From contig CP070233.1 in the NCBI GenBank assembly GCA_017355425.1, positions 3,699,501 through 3,763,500 of the forward strand: 64,000 nucleotides of DNA. The letters are read 5' to 3'. The DNA comes from Dolichospermum sp. DET69. GTDB taxonomy: Bacteria; Cyanobacteriota; Cyanobacteriia; Cyanobacteriales; Nostocaceae. Every line of letters begins with the position of its first letter. Positions within the stretch are counted from its first letter, which is position 1. Below, piece by piece: positions 6,702 to 45,399 of the stretch. Both the position numbers and the translations under genes were made by a program. Below the pieces are notes generated by a model. That model made no database searches, was not told the origin of the DNA, and was given only the letters and a program-made list of their open reading frames with translations.

Positions 6702-7212
6702 CTATTTTAAAGTGTAGAGCGATATCTTGAAGGATATTGAGAACTCCCTTGTCCGTTGTTATAGTGGTAAAAATCAGCCAACTTATGTAGGAGCAGTTTG
6801 AAAATCTAAAATAATTTTTGTAACAAGCACCACATTTTTTTAAATTTGCCCTGAAAGTGAATTAATCGAGTTGATGGTAAATTTATGTTGCGTAAATAAC
6901 TAATAAAACTTTAATTATCTATTGATAGAAATCACCGCTACTAAGCTGAGAAAGTGCTATCGTAGAAAAGATAATTAAGCATTTACAAAAGATACTCATC
7001 TCAGTGTCTTCTGTTTGTCTGTGTTGTTCTGTAAAAAAACTGATTAAGTCCAACTATATTTGTTAACCAACAAATAAAATATCTGGCTAATCACTAACAA
7101 AAGTCCAAAAGATGGATAAAGCATCCAGGTTATTAGGATAAAAAAGACTAGAAAACATCAGAAAATTCTGATTGATAAACTGTCGAAAACACAACTATTT
7201 CAGCTAATATAC
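6702..7212. other. intergenic region upstream of ctpA
   Basis: About 510 bp of AT-rich DNA with no gene. It probably holds the original ctpA promoter, now separated from the ctpA start codon by the 443-bp RNA element at 7213-7655. The 16 nt directly before that element (7197-7212, ATTTCAGCTAATATAC) would be the guide segment if the element is an IscB omega RNA. Confidence 0.5.
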
Positions 7213-7655
7213 GTCAGTAACCCAGCCCTAAAGGGACTGAGCTTGCAAAAGAAATTAAACAAGCTGTACTGACCAGACCACCCTGAGCATAGTCTCAGGG
7301 TAGCCGTTATTTGAGTCACGACACCCACCGAATGCGAAGCTAGTTCCCTGCTCTGTCGCTTGTGATTAAACAGTTCTAAGGTCACTGGAACAGTGTTGCA
7401 AGTCTAACAAGCTCTAATAACTGGTCGAAGCTAACATTACCCCAGAAATGGGAGGCTCTTTGGAGCAAAACATTATGCGTACAGAGTTGAGAAATTTGAA
7501 TCGGTAATTGTCCCGTTGAAAGTACATCACAAAAGTACCCCGAATTTCCCAACTCCAAGGCGGTAATGAAACAAGATTTAAAGCGTTTAAAAACGCCCGA
7601 TTTGCTTCCCTCTCAGGTCTAAAGACACTGAGTTTCCCACTTACCGCGATGTCTT
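7213..7655 (+). ncRNA. HEARO-like / IscB omega-RNA element, copy A
   Basis: A 443-bp element nearly identical to the minus-strand copy at 44757-45199. Structure cues: a perfect 7-bp closing pair (GTCAGTA 7213-7219 with TACTGAC 7267-7273), a 7-bp hairpin at 7281-7300 (CCCTGAG/CTCAGGG), and two hairpins near the 3' end that covary between copies. Those are GCGUU/AACGC here against GCGGU/ACCGC in the other copy, and GUCU/AGAC against GGCU/AGCC. The element ends exactly at ATGA. HEARO RNAs, the omega RNAs of IscB nucleases, are known to end before ATGA or GTGA. No IscB gene is in the window, so this would be a solo, non-autonomous copy. The family name is from recall; the structure and repeat are seen directly. 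Confidence 0.75.
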
Positions 7656-8972
7656 ATGAACCAATCTGCGAAACGTTACTCACCGCTCCAAGCTGCCTTG
7701 ATTGGTGGAGCGATCGCCACAACTGCTACTATATCTGTATTCGGTCAGGCTTGGACACGCTCAGTTCATGCTGCTTTACAAGATAGTCCTAAAGCATTAG
7801 TTGACCAAGTTTGGCAGTTGGTGAATCGTGAATATGTTGATGAAAAATTTAATCAGCAAGATTGGCAAGCAATCAGGCAAAGCCTATTAAGTAAAGATTA
7901 TACTTCTAAAGATGAAGCTTATGTAGCCATCCGTGAAGCTTTGCAAAAGCTAGGTGATCCCTACACACGGTTTATGAACCCCAAACAATACGAATCCCTA
8001 ACCAACCAAACATCTGGGGAAGTATCCGGGATTGGTATTCGGATGCAAATCAACGAAAAAACCAAGCGTCTAACGGTAATAGAAGCTATAGAAAATTCTC
8101 CAGCCCTCAAAGCCGGACTCAAATCAGGTGATGAGATTTTAGCAATTGATGGTAAATCTACCCTGAAAATGACGGTAGAAGATGCTTCAAAATTGATTCG
8201 TGGTCGGATAGGTACTTCTGTGAGATTGGACTTAGAAAGACCAAGTAACAAATTTAACGTTAAATTAACGAGAGCAACAATAGAAGTTCCCACAGTCCGG
8301 TATACCCTGAAACAAGAAACTGGTCGGCGAGTTGGGTATATTAAATTACAAGAATTTAGCTCTCACGCTGCGGATCAAATGCGTGTAGCCATTCGCAAGT
8401 TGAACGACCAAAAAGTTGATTCCTACGTTTTAGATTTACGAGGTAATCCTGGTGGTCTATTAAATGCGAGTATAGAAATTGCCAGAATGTGGCTAGATGA
8501 CGGACATATCGTCAAAACCGTGGACCGCAAAGGATCAAGTTCTCAAACAACAGCTAACCGTACAGCTATTACCAAACTCCCCTTAGCAATTTTAGTTGAT
8601 GGTAATTCCGCTAGTGCTAGTGAAATCCTCACCGGCGCACTTAAAGATAATAAACGCGCTGTGGTTGTTGGTAGTCAAACCTTCGGTAAAGCTTTAGTAC
8701 AGTCAGTCCATGAATTAGGGGATGGTTCAGGTCTAGCTGTCACCATTGCCCATTACTATACACCGAATGGTACAGATATCAATCATAAAGGGATTGCACC
8801 AGATATTAAGCTCGACTTGACACAAACCCAAGAACGTGAATTAGCTTCTAATCCAAATTTAGTTGGTACAAATAGCGATCCCCAATATAGCCGCGCTATT
8901 GCTGTTCTTTCTAATGGCAAATTAGCACAATCACAGTCTATGAATGTCAGTGCTAAAGACCTGAAATTTTAG
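7656..8972 (+). CDS. ctpA: carboxyl-terminal processing serine protease CtpA
   Basis: Family S41 protease that trims the C-terminus of the photosystem II D1 precursor or related exported substrates. 438 residues: an N-terminal signal/anchor (about 12-40, AALIGGAIATTATISVFG), a PDZ domain (about 120-200, SGIGIRM, SPALKAGLKSGDEILAIDG) and the catalytic domain with the Ser/Lys dyad at Ser320 (NSASASEI) and Lys345 (QTFGKALVQ). Its start codon is the ATGA that terminates the HEARO-like RNA element, so the whole native leader has been replaced by that element. Expression may depend on read-through from upstream or on a promoter inside the element. Confidence 0.92.
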   Translation: MNQSAKRYSPLQAALIGGAIATTATISVFGQAWTRSVHAALQDSPKALVDQVWQLVNREYVDEKFNQQDWQAIRQSLLSKDYTSKDEAYVAIREALQKLGDPYTRFMNPKQYESLTNQTSGEVSGIGIRMQINEKTKRLTVIEAIENSPALKAGLKSGDEILAIDGKSTLKMTVEDASKLIRGRIGTSVRLDLERPSNKFNVKLTRATIEVPTVRYTLKQETGRRVGYIKLQEFSSHAADQMRVAIRKLNDQKVDSYVLDLRGNPGGLLNASIEIARMWLDDGHIVKTVDRKGSSSQTTANRTAITKLPLAILVDGNSASASEILTGALKDNKRAVVVGSQTFGKALVQSVHELGDGSGLAVTIAHYYTPNGTDINHKGIAPDIKLDLTQTQERELASNPNLVGTNSDPQYSRAIAVLSNGKLAQSQSMNVSAKDLKF

Positions 8973-42589: not shown

Positions 42590-43477
42590 ATGGCGAGAAT
42601 TGCACTACTGATAGGGGTAAGTGAATATCAACCAGGCTTAAATAAACTGGCTGGGGCTGTAAAAGATATCGAAGCAATGCGGCGAGTTTTACAGCATCCA
42701 GAAATGGGCGATTTTGCTGAAAGTGAAATTATAATCATGCCAAATCCTCAAAGACAGGATATGGAAAATGCGATTGAAAAGCTTTTTGATAACCGTAAAA
42801 AAGATGATTTATTATTGTTTTATTTCTCTGGTCATGGAATTACCGATGATACTGGTAAGTTATATCTAACTAATAGCCAAACTCGCAAATATGATAATGG
42901 TAATTTGGTCAAAACTACAGCTACTCCTGCCAGCTTAATACATGAATTCATGGAAAATAGTCGTTCTCAGCGACAGGTAATTATTCTGGATGCTTGTTTT
43001 AGTGGTGCTTTTGCCGAAGGGATGAAAGCAAAAGATGATAGTAGTGTAGATATTAATCAGCAATTGGGAGGAAAAGGTAGGGCGGTTTTGACTTCTTCCT
43101 CTTCTAGTCAATATTCTTTTGAACAAACAGGAGAAGAATTATCAGTTTATACTCGTTACATTGTTAATGGTATTGAAACTGGGGCGGCTGACATTGATAA
43201 CGATGGCGTGATTTCTGTTAATGAATTGCATGAATATGCCTCTAAAAAAGTGCAGGAAGCAGCACCAGCAATGAGTCCTAAAATTTATGCTGTGGAAGAA
43301 GGTTATAAAATTAAGGTAGCAAACGCACCTGTTGGTAATCCAAAATTAAAATATCGCAAGGAAGTAGAAAAATATTTATGTGATGGTAAAATTTCAGTGG
43401 TTAATCGTCGAAGTTTAAAAATTCATCAAAATAAATTAGGTTTTTTATCATCACAATATGTTCCCGTTCTCGAATAA
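42590..43477 (+). CDS. caspase-family (metacaspase/C14) protease, C-terminus rearranged
   Basis: 295 residues. The peptidase C14 dyad is His82 (YFSGHGI) and Cys136 (ILDACFSGA). N-terminal ALLIGVSEY and the QPGLNKLAGAVKDI signature are typical. Residues 201-212 (DIDNDGVISVNE) form a canonical EF-hand calcium loop inside the caspase domain. After about 255 a small helical domain begins (YRKEVEKYLCDGKISVVNRR, as in effector-associated segments), but it ends abnormally. The last roughly ten codons run antisense into a truncated hicA (junction near 43437-43442). The catalytic part is complete; a C-terminal adaptor has probably been lost. Confidence 0.85.
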   Translation: MARIALLIGVSEYQPGLNKLAGAVKDIEAMRRVLQHPEMGDFAESEIIIMPNPQRQDMENAIEKLFDNRKKDDLLLFYFSGHGITDDTGKLYLTNSQTRKYDNGNLVKTTATPASLIHEFMENSRSQRQVIILDACFSGAFAEGMKAKDDSSVDINQQLGGKGRAVLTSSSSSQYSFEQTGEELSVYTRYIVNGIETGAADIDNDGVISVNELHEYASKKVQEAAPAMSPKIYAVEEGYKIKVANAPVGNPKLKYRKEVEKYLCDGKISVVNRRSLKIHQNKLGFLSSQYVPVLE

Positions 43478-44243: not shown

Positions 44244-44758
44244 ATGAGTAACCAAATCACAATTACTCTACCAGATGACGTTTATCAAAAAGCTGAACAC
44301 TTTGCACGTCTAGCAAATCGGGATTTAGCCAGCGTCTTAGTTGATACCATTCAATTTTCTATTCCACCTATTAGCTTAGAAGCAACAAACTTTGAACCTG
44401 TATCAGCACTTTCTGATCAACAAGTTTTAGCTTTGACAGAATTACAAATGGAATCTGAAGAAGATAGTCGTTTAAGTAGGTGAACATAAAAAATTAAAGG
44501 TATGTAAAGAAAAGTAAAATCTCCCAAAACCTCTTCATTCTTGCCTCTTGCCTTTTGCCTCTTGCCTTGCCATAACGACAATTTTCAATGCTAACCTACT
44601 TAAGTGAGTTACTGGATAAACAACAAGCTGGTATGCTTACAGAATCAGAATATTCTGAATTGCAAACACTAATGCAAATTTATCAGGAAGGACTATTGCG
44701 AAAAGCCACCGCATTGAGTGAAGCTGTCAACCGTGGATTAATAAAAGACATATCATAA
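44244..44758 (+). pseudogene. 128-residue helical protein gene split by a 122-bp insert
   Basis: The first 78 codons (MSNQITITLPDDVYQKAEHF, ending EDSRLS) begin with a ribbon-helix-helix-like segment. Removing the insert 44478-44599 and one TTAAGT copy joins them in frame to ELLDKQQAGMLTESEYSELQ and continues to the end GLIKDIS. The restored gene has 128 residues, typical of a cyanobacterial family of unknown function. Its stop lies exactly at the edge of the HEARO-like element; without that element the stop would be TAG at the same codon. As it stands, two partial frames remain (44244-44483 and 44588-44758), either of which might be translated. Confidence 0.85.
44478..44599. mobile_element. 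MITE family c (122 bp) inside a gene
   Basis: Flanked by TTAAGT (44472-44477 and 44600-44605). The ends AGGT and ACCT, together with the duplicated target, form the inverted repeat TTAAGTAGGT/ACCTACTTAA. The interior contains CTTGCCTCTTGCC tandem repeats (about 44540-44570). No coding potential. It interrupts codon 78 of the host gene. Confidence 0.8.
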
Positions 44759-45199
44759 GACCTCGCGGTAAGTGGGAAACTCAGTGGCTAAAGCCGGTGA
44801 GAGGGAAACGACACGAGCGGTTTTAACCGCCTTGAATATTTCTTCATTACCGCCTTGGAGTTGGAAAATTCGGGGTACTTTTGTGATGTACTTTCAACGG
44901 GACAATTACCGATTCAAATTTTCCAACTCTGTACGCATAATGTTTTGCTCCAAAGAGCCTCCCATTTCTGGGGTAATGTTAGCTTCGACCTGTTATAAGA
45001 GCTTGTTAAGCTTGCAACACTGTTCCAGTGACCTTGGAACTGTTTAATCACAAGCGACAGGGCAAGGAACTAGCTACGCATTCCGGGGTGTCTTGACTCA
45101 AATAACGGCTACCCTGAGACTATGCTCAGGGTGGTCTGGTCAGTACAGCTTGCTTGATTACTCTTGCAAGCTCAGTCCTTTTAGGGCTGGGTTACTGAC
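44757..45199 (-). ncRNA. HEARO-like / IscB omega-RNA element, copy C
   Basis: A 443-bp copy of the element at 7213-7655, on the opposite strand and of equal length. It starts (minus strand) GTCAGTAACCCAGCCCTA and ends CCGCGAGGTCTT directly before ATGA (44756-44753). The hairpins near the 3' end, at 44786-44795 and 44817-44830, carry compensatory changes against copy A. The 16 nt upstream (reverse complement of 45200-45215, ACAGGCAGTTAATCCT) would be the guide. There is no IscB gene. Short frames inside are non-conserved translations of RNA sequence. It sits between a broken small gene and murE. Confidence 0.75.
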
Positions 45200-45399
45200 A
45201 GGATTAACTGCCTGTGGTCGTGTTACAGTTTTAGCTTTATAACTTAATAATAATCTACGCAGTGACTGTGAGACAAGCCTGGGTTTCTGCTGGTTGGCAT
45301 CCACCTGAAGATGGTTTCTAAATTCTGTGGTATTTCTGTCAATAGATAAAAAATAATGTTTAAATAAGCGCAAGACAAGCTTGTGGCGAGGTTCACCAG

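Follow-up and report, generated by a model that had tools for sequence, protein, structure and literature searches.

The two 443-nt copies that lie in opposite orientations in the window (the whole stretch of 64,000 nt analysed here) are probably, each of them, a non-autonomous element of the IS200/IS605 type (ISC) that carries a guide RNA and no protein, is moved by TnpA and guides IscB in trans. The ends, the target, the precise empty sites, the conserved RNA folds and the iscB and tnpA genes elsewhere in the genome can be read directly from the sequence. On the same reading, each copy is a 228-nt omega RNA, followed by a 130-nt structured RNA domain (the 3' domain) and then by an 87-bp IS200/IS605-type DNA end, and the first hairpin of the omega RNA doubles as a transposon end. 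The initial annotation had taken the pair for candidate solo IscB omega RNAs, structured over all 443 bp. Its observation of the two copies is confirmed and its interpretation is partly supported: both have a HEARO match, but this covers only the first ~228 of the 443 nt, and the structured RNA domain of 130 nt that separates omega RNA from DNA end had not been singled out. The parts of the two copies, 7213-7655 (+) and 44757-45199 (-), are as follows.

7197..7212, + strand: presumed guide of copy 1 (host DNA), the 16 nt immediately 5' of the element, which abut ATGA in the empty sites
7213..7440, + strand: HEARO / omega RNA scaffold of copy 1; Rfam HEARO RF02033, 130.2 bits, E 1e-26 (cut-off 83); paired columns covary over the copies
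7213..7245, + strand: transposon right end of copy 1 (read on the - strand); GTCA is the complement of the cleavage site TGAC
7213..7245, + strand: hairpin of that right end, CCAGCCC..GGGACTGAG; CTTG is the complement of the guide tetranucleotide CAAG; taken from the sequence, and fitting the IS608 pairing logic
7439..7568, + strand: 3' RNA domain of copy 1; covariance model R1; outside Rfam 15
7569..7655, + strand: transposon left end of copy 1 (read on the - strand), the same end as at tnpA loci L059-L061 and in the iscB element L073; second hairpin 7583-7596, palindrome 7612-7632, TTTC at 7633-7636 the complement of the guide tetranucleotide GAAA
7656..7659, + strand: ATGA host target and presumed target-adjacent motif (TAM) of copy 1, serving the next gene as start codon as well; found in the empty site of 15/15 congeners
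7656..8972, + strand: host gene for a CtpB-type carboxyl-terminal processing protease; NCBIfam NF045589, 725.8 bits (cut-off 633)
45200..45215, - strand: presumed guide of copy 2, the 16 nt 5' of the element, joined to ATGATATGT in G002, G005 and G009
44973..45199, - strand: HEARO / omega RNA scaffold of copy 2; RF02033, 140.5 bits, E 3e-29 (cut-off 83)
44845..44974, - strand: 3' RNA domain of copy 2; model R1, 163.1 bits
44757..44844, - strand: transposon left end of copy 2, taken from the sequence; end-pattern match at 44753-44782
44753..44756, - strand: ATGA target and presumed TAM of copy 2, from the sequence and the empty sites

In a gapped alignment the two copies are identical in 407 of 445 columns, with two gap positions each (omega RNA 212/228, middle part 125/128, last part 70/89). 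ATGA follows each of them directly and the DNA beyond is unrelated, so that the equal length, the inverted arrangement, the ATGA and the different surroundings all stand as they had been described. The same is true of the lack of a conserved protein frame, since no open stretch of 100 codons or more occurs in any frame of either copy, the longest being 79 and 91 codons. The base changes that had been quoted as keeping hairpins are real and do retain pairing, yet they are no evidence of an omega RNA: they fall beyond the HEARO match, within the transposon DNA end, where GCGTT/AACGC belongs to the second hairpin of the left end (7583-7596) and GTCT/AGAC to its palindrome (7612-7632). Not far from copy 2, positions 42590-43477 code for a protein with a caspase domain (Peptidase_C14).

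The window pair proved to be two of many copies in the genome (6.04 Mb, two contigs), which holds 70 HEARO matches at E<=0.001, 53 of them over the cut-off, and 52 element-like blastn pieces. All 70 loci were read with their flanks. GTCAGT starts 47 of them, of which 42 are solo copies, 358-614 nt long, with both ends recognisable and no iscB between; the other five comprise two of iscB type (396132 and 669083) and three with no recognised end (4442829, 56227 and 3909074). The solo copies have sharp GTCA starts in unrelated flanks, and the elements have moved recently, because two identical 441-nt copies stand at different sites; 13 pairs of copies are at least 98% identical, and a Dolichospermum plasmid carries a 93% copy. 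As judged by covariation, the omega RNA fold is kept in the solo copies. When the Rfam structure was laid on 27 non-redundant copies of the 42, the pairs of the end hairpin being left out, 12 of 61 pairs changed on both sides (mean 6.9 and maximum 11 in 500 shuffles) and 86.5% of cells paired (shuffles at most 84.0%); the shuffles in this and the later covariation tests leave the relatedness of the copies in place.

ATGA/GTGA is the TAM of characterised IscB nucleases, and a position before ATGA/GTGA has long been known for HEARO. Here ATGA follows 41 of the 42 solo copies, the exception being an ATAA at C1:1485100 in this genome (G000). That site reads ATGA in G013, where it is occupied, and in G007 and G002, where it is empty, and therefore all 42 insertions fit ATGA; the ATAA might be a later change, one that could leave the copy immobile by destroying the TAM as well as the TnpA site. 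To find empty sites, the flanks of 15 copies were joined at ATGA and searched in 15 congeners. A contiguous match across the joint was found in at least one congener for 14 of the 15 junctions; at the remaining one (1779843) the flank matches but none of the 15 congeners has a contiguous empty site. The site of copy 1 is empty in 15/15 congeners, with a few base differences in some, inside the flanks only, and that of copy 2 in all three congeners that keep its left flank (G002, G005 and G009), where ATGATATGT follows directly. ATGA is present in every empty site compared for these two copies, neither has a target-site duplication, and nothing is lost or duplicated at the joint. Because the left flank is joined directly to ATGA in the empty sites, the ~16 nt upstream of an element fit its own empty site, as had been anticipated, while their role as a guide is inferred from the IscB literature, in which a 16-nt guide is reported to suffice (PMC9640706). 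On IsrB enzymes, PMC9581776 reports that DtIsrB cleaves at TTGA as well as at ATGA, and that NTG serves as the TAM of one from Dolichospermum. Two further observations concern insertion sites. Relative to G002, G005 and G009, G000 is missing ~315 nt at about window position 44744, beginning 9 nt past the ATGA start of copy 2. The start codon of a gene that by eye resembles hemA has been entered at the same base by two element subfamilies in two species (L183, G011:C55, and G000 C1:4324712), several congeners being empty there.

The IS608 rule of guide/cleavage pairing has a four-position form. Read on the - strand, one end of our elements has the order TCAT / ... GAAA-hairpin and the opposite end the order CAAG-hairpin ... 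TGAC /, and the guide/cleavage pairs CAAG/TGAC and GAAA/TCAT, with subterminal hairpins at both ends, fit the IS608 pattern, in which guide tetranucleotides 5' of the hairpin foot are described as recognising the cleavage tetranucleotides (PMC5934647). Among the matches listed, 86 of 89 family-like ends are concordant between guide tetranucleotide and target (68 TTTC/ATGA and 18 TTTT/ATAA, against two TTTC/ATAA and one TTTT/ATGA), with a P of 1e-15 that overstates the case because the copies are related. The end pattern had given 110 matches (35 for the reversed control pattern), of which 100 were used and 11 that are not family-like were dropped, leaving the 89. The genome has 16 Y1-transposase matches. 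Three of these loci, L059-L061, share the left end, their last ~75 bp being common also to the iscB element L073; L059 ends at ATGA, L060 and L061 at ATAA, and the TnpA of L059 is open over 133 aa (IS200/IS605 transposase, 147.1 bits, cut-off 55). The initial annotation had set a known IS family with a transposase against an omega RNA. Since the DNA end is shared with a tnpA element, that too was found, the last 87 bp being an IS200/IS605 TnpA end, and the two readings are compatible. L175 and L198 are minimal elements of ~50 bp, the hairpin of the right end passing straight into the left end, and perhaps arose by recombination between the two similar hairpins.

Within the 64,000-nt window there is no match to RRXRR (IscB), whereas the rest of the genome has 16, some of them fragments, in line with the earlier proposal that IscB would be supplied from elsewhere. 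At C1:396381 an IscB frame of 440-445 aa (440 aa from TTG) is open; the protein has RRXRR and HNH domains and matches the NCBIfam guided_IscB equivalog with 451.6 bits (cut-off 175); its closest counterpart among named genomes is the iscB of Dolichospermum sp. ST_sed8, and its relatives with solved structures include OgeuIscB. The element around it (L073, C1:396132) has the same start, HEARO, iscB, the same last ~75 bp and ATGA, in this order. An RRXRR protein is encoded in 33 of the 35 checked genomes that have the 3' domain, a proportion that covers genomes with the domain and not those of the family that do without it. G016 and G054 are the two of the 35 in which no RRXRR match was found, and G004 has six HEARO matches and no RRXRR match; IscB in trans is therefore not always available.

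Other RNA-bearing loci were seen as well. In 11 of them (L161, L164, L166, L169, L170, L174, L177, L232, L233, L234 and L238) an IsrB-type omega RNA signature stands just before the same TnpA end and ATGA, in a space too short for a protein, and to judge from their sequences they are apparently a second family of protein-less guide-RNA elements. Two IsrB-like loci of this genome, C1:4390351 (L137) and C2:68761 (L138), have a GTCAATAAC start, a weak HEARO match and an RRXRR protein, whose gene is separated from the omega RNA by a long stretch; this includes a 551-codon open stretch that, by eye, looks like a group II intron reverse transcriptase. C1:1614142, 707753 and 3694899, where only a gap of ~2.2 kb was seen, are perhaps similar, and the long stretch is missing at C1:3373432.

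Of the 42 solo copies, 30 contain the 130-nt 3' domain and 12 have another stretch in its place; some copies without it have also moved recently. Rfam 15, searched over 7180-7680 of the window with E up to 1, gave HEARO alone and no match for the domain, and at gathering scores it gave nothing in 29 loci but HEARO, which touches the first bases of the domain, so that a known RNA family was rejected. When 118 genomes sampled from the family were searched with the covariance model R1, at least 36 of them, from at least 20 of 56 genera, proved to have the domain, as did at least 22 of 291 sampled phylum-wide, all in three families of one order; these counts are lower bounds, as searches over more than 40 genomes filter more strictly and score some candidates only. 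The 29 loci are the best locus of each of 29 among the 36 genomes. HEARO lies directly before the domain in 27 of them (20/20 and 7/9), overlapping its first bases or at most 18 nt away, and neither iscB nor tnpA was matched in the sequence of up to 3.1 kb that represents each locus. From genus to genus the DNA end that follows the domain has another sequence, and yet the layout hairpin, TTTC (or CTTC), 11 to 24 nt, ATGA/GTGA recurs in 21/29 loci vs 21/948 control windows, by a strict script that for L299 chose another place than the comparison of the ends between genera had. Since omega RNA and 3' domain are kept together across genera while the DNA end differs, they behave, as far as these alignments go, as one unit that would be carried by different transposon ends. 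In 25 iscB-bearing sources (24 distinct, L193 and L239 being one contig to judge by its length) R1 found no convincing match; its four weak ones scored 18.6-20.2 bits (E 0.018-0.045), three being of 56-59 nt and one, of 134 nt, overlapping the iscB start. That the domain is the tail of an IsrB-type omega RNA was also rejected: R1, allowed an E of up to 1, matched none of the 23 sources from this genome that have RRXRR or weak HEARO loci.

The structure of the 3' domain was drawn by hand on the window copy, after viewing of the own-genome alignment, in which 5 of its 28 pairs changed on both sides, a number reached by 0/500 shuffles; one of the five measures of that test, further pair types, was reached by 279/500. 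Across genera, 15/28 pairs changed on both sides in an independent alignment that included 26 of the 29 loci (mean 7.9 over 500 shuffles, none of which reached 15; slid controls 5-9), and 19/28 in an alignment that had been fitted to the structure. The helix cells that are not Watson-Crick pairs on the RNA strand amount to 40 G-U, 18 A-C and 49 others. If two positions with poor pairing, which were dropped after inspection, are excluded, the numbers become 40 G-U, 5 A-C and 22 others. This excess of G-U is as expected of an RNA read from the omega RNA's own strand. A loop-loop contact inside the domain is suggested by UGU/ACA, which pairs in all 87 cells; two of its three pairs are invariant and the sole double change occurs in L311 and L312, from two genomes of one genus.

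It is unlikely, in our view, that the elements spread via their TnpA ends only, with omega RNA and 3' domain as inherited cargo that no longer guides IscB. The minimal elements L175 and L198 have both ends and no omega RNA, so that mobility does not need the RNA, and the left end is common to other elements. The choice of insertion site agrees with such a view. Solo copies end exactly at a plausible start codon in 18 of 42 cases, vs 34 of 627 ATGA sites in the window, or, with sites inside genes left out, in 18/37 vs 34/193 (P = 1.4e-4, for a background taken from the window only and genes defined as ORFs of at least 100 aa). ATGA-ended elements without a HEARO match do so in 14/32 (Fisher P = 1 vs 18/42), in a control set that is mixed, as 11 of 29 re-examined members have the IsrB-type omega signature and one has a 3'-domain tail; the remaining 17 control elements give 8/17. 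The idea that insertion at start codons is selected for transcription of guide and omega RNA from host promoters was rejected, given that HEARO-free elements do likewise, and because start codons are hit equally with and without HEARO, the insertion sites bear no signature of RNA function. Against mere cargo speak the covarying pairs that both RNA domains retain in the solo copies, the persistence of omega RNA plus 3' domain as a unit across many genera despite differing sequences of the transposon end that follows, and the RRXRR protein in 33/35 checked genomes, a count confined, as above, to genomes with the domain.

The frequent position at start codons, together with copy 1 at the start codon of the CtpB-type protease, could also mean that the unit has turned into a 5' leader controlling the downstream host gene. 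We give this reading the least weight of all, because HEARO-free ATGA-ended elements have the same bias (14/32) and the insert is missing in at least one congener at 14 of the 15 sites tested, which leaves no sign of long conservation at one gene. Hardly more probable is a 3' domain that acts as a single-stranded DNA structure used by TnpA rather than as RNA: the domain lies beside a DNA hairpin, the form that transposon ends take in this family, but G-U exceeds A-C on the RNA strand, whereas on the strand processed by TnpA G-U would read A-C, and 12 of the 42 solo copies as well as the iscB elements do without the domain. We return to the non-autonomous element that carries a guide RNA, with TnpA and IscB acting in trans.

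For such an element we envisage that a Y1 transposase (TnpA) encoded elsewhere would peel the - strand out as a single-stranded circle, to be pasted 3' of TCAT; on the RNA strand it would then stand immediately before ATGA, and no target sequence would be duplicated. The host flank would supply guide and promoter, so that the transcript would carry the last ~16 host nt as a guide in front of an RNA unit made up, by prediction, of the HEARO omega RNA and, in 30/42 solo copies, of the conserved 3' domain in the place of iscB. IscB in trans would recognise guide plus ATGA, that is, the exact empty allele, and cut it, and repair could then reinstate the element by copying (homing/retention), a scheme that has been put forward for TnpB at TTGAT (PMC8612924). 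An active role of the 3' domain is possible and is put forward tentatively: by stabilising, ending or processing the RNA, it might make the omega RNA independent of iscB translation, a proposal against which the 12/42 solo copies without the domain must be set. With equal reserve one may imagine that omega RNA and 3' domain together form an ancient non-coding RNA of two domains, mobile in its own right, in which the 3' domain has replaced the iscB gene and enables the guide RNA to parasitise IscB and TnpA in trans, for instance through self-processing (as a ribozyme of a new class) or through recruitment or stabilisation of IscB, with the loop-loop contact involved.

With HEARO RF02033, the IscB omega RNA, our elements share sequence and structure over all 211 model positions, the place before ATGA and a predicted guide in the 5' flank; they differ in that no iscB follows the solo copies and that a second structured RNA domain does, outside the Rfam model. 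Unlike the iscB-bearing ISC element L073, which has the same start, kind of omega RNA, end and ATGA, they have the 3' domain or a shorter stretch where that element has iscB (440 aa). IS608, ISDra2 and their MITEs are described as having a Y1 transposase, subterminal hairpins, guide tetranucleotide pairing and no target duplication (PMC5934647; PMC8612924). The hairpins, the guide/cleavage pairing and the lack of duplication recur here, whereas our elements have an RNA on the strand opposite to the one that TnpA would process, a TCAT target and no encoded protein. Standalone omega RNAs able to function with IscB have been found, as told by PMC9581776 in citing earlier work, and they resemble ours in having no linked iscB and an iscB elsewhere in the genome; as far as the citing paper tells, the ends, target code, empty sites and conserved 3' domain documented here set ours apart. 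Solo omega RNAs with IscB in trans are thus already published (PMC9581776), and it is the conserved 3' domain that, on its sequence, looks new. No description of it or of its exchange with iscB was found in the literature covered, which comprised open papers retrieved by searches aimed at other subjects than the domain, the founding HEARO, ISC and omega RNA papers being outside this scope.

IscB is considered the likely ancestor of Cas9, and how the guide RNA helps the transposon of IscB is still mostly inferred. In the present genome both ends could be defined for 42 solo omega RNAs, a congener preserves the natural target in its empty state for 14 of the 15 tested, and there are iscB and tnpA genes with open frames. 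Guides and targets that belong together in nature thus make homing by a guide RNA in trans open to experiment. What sits where the nuclease gene should be is a conserved RNA fold, the 3' domain, and its role would show how a guide RNA becomes a mobile element of its own.
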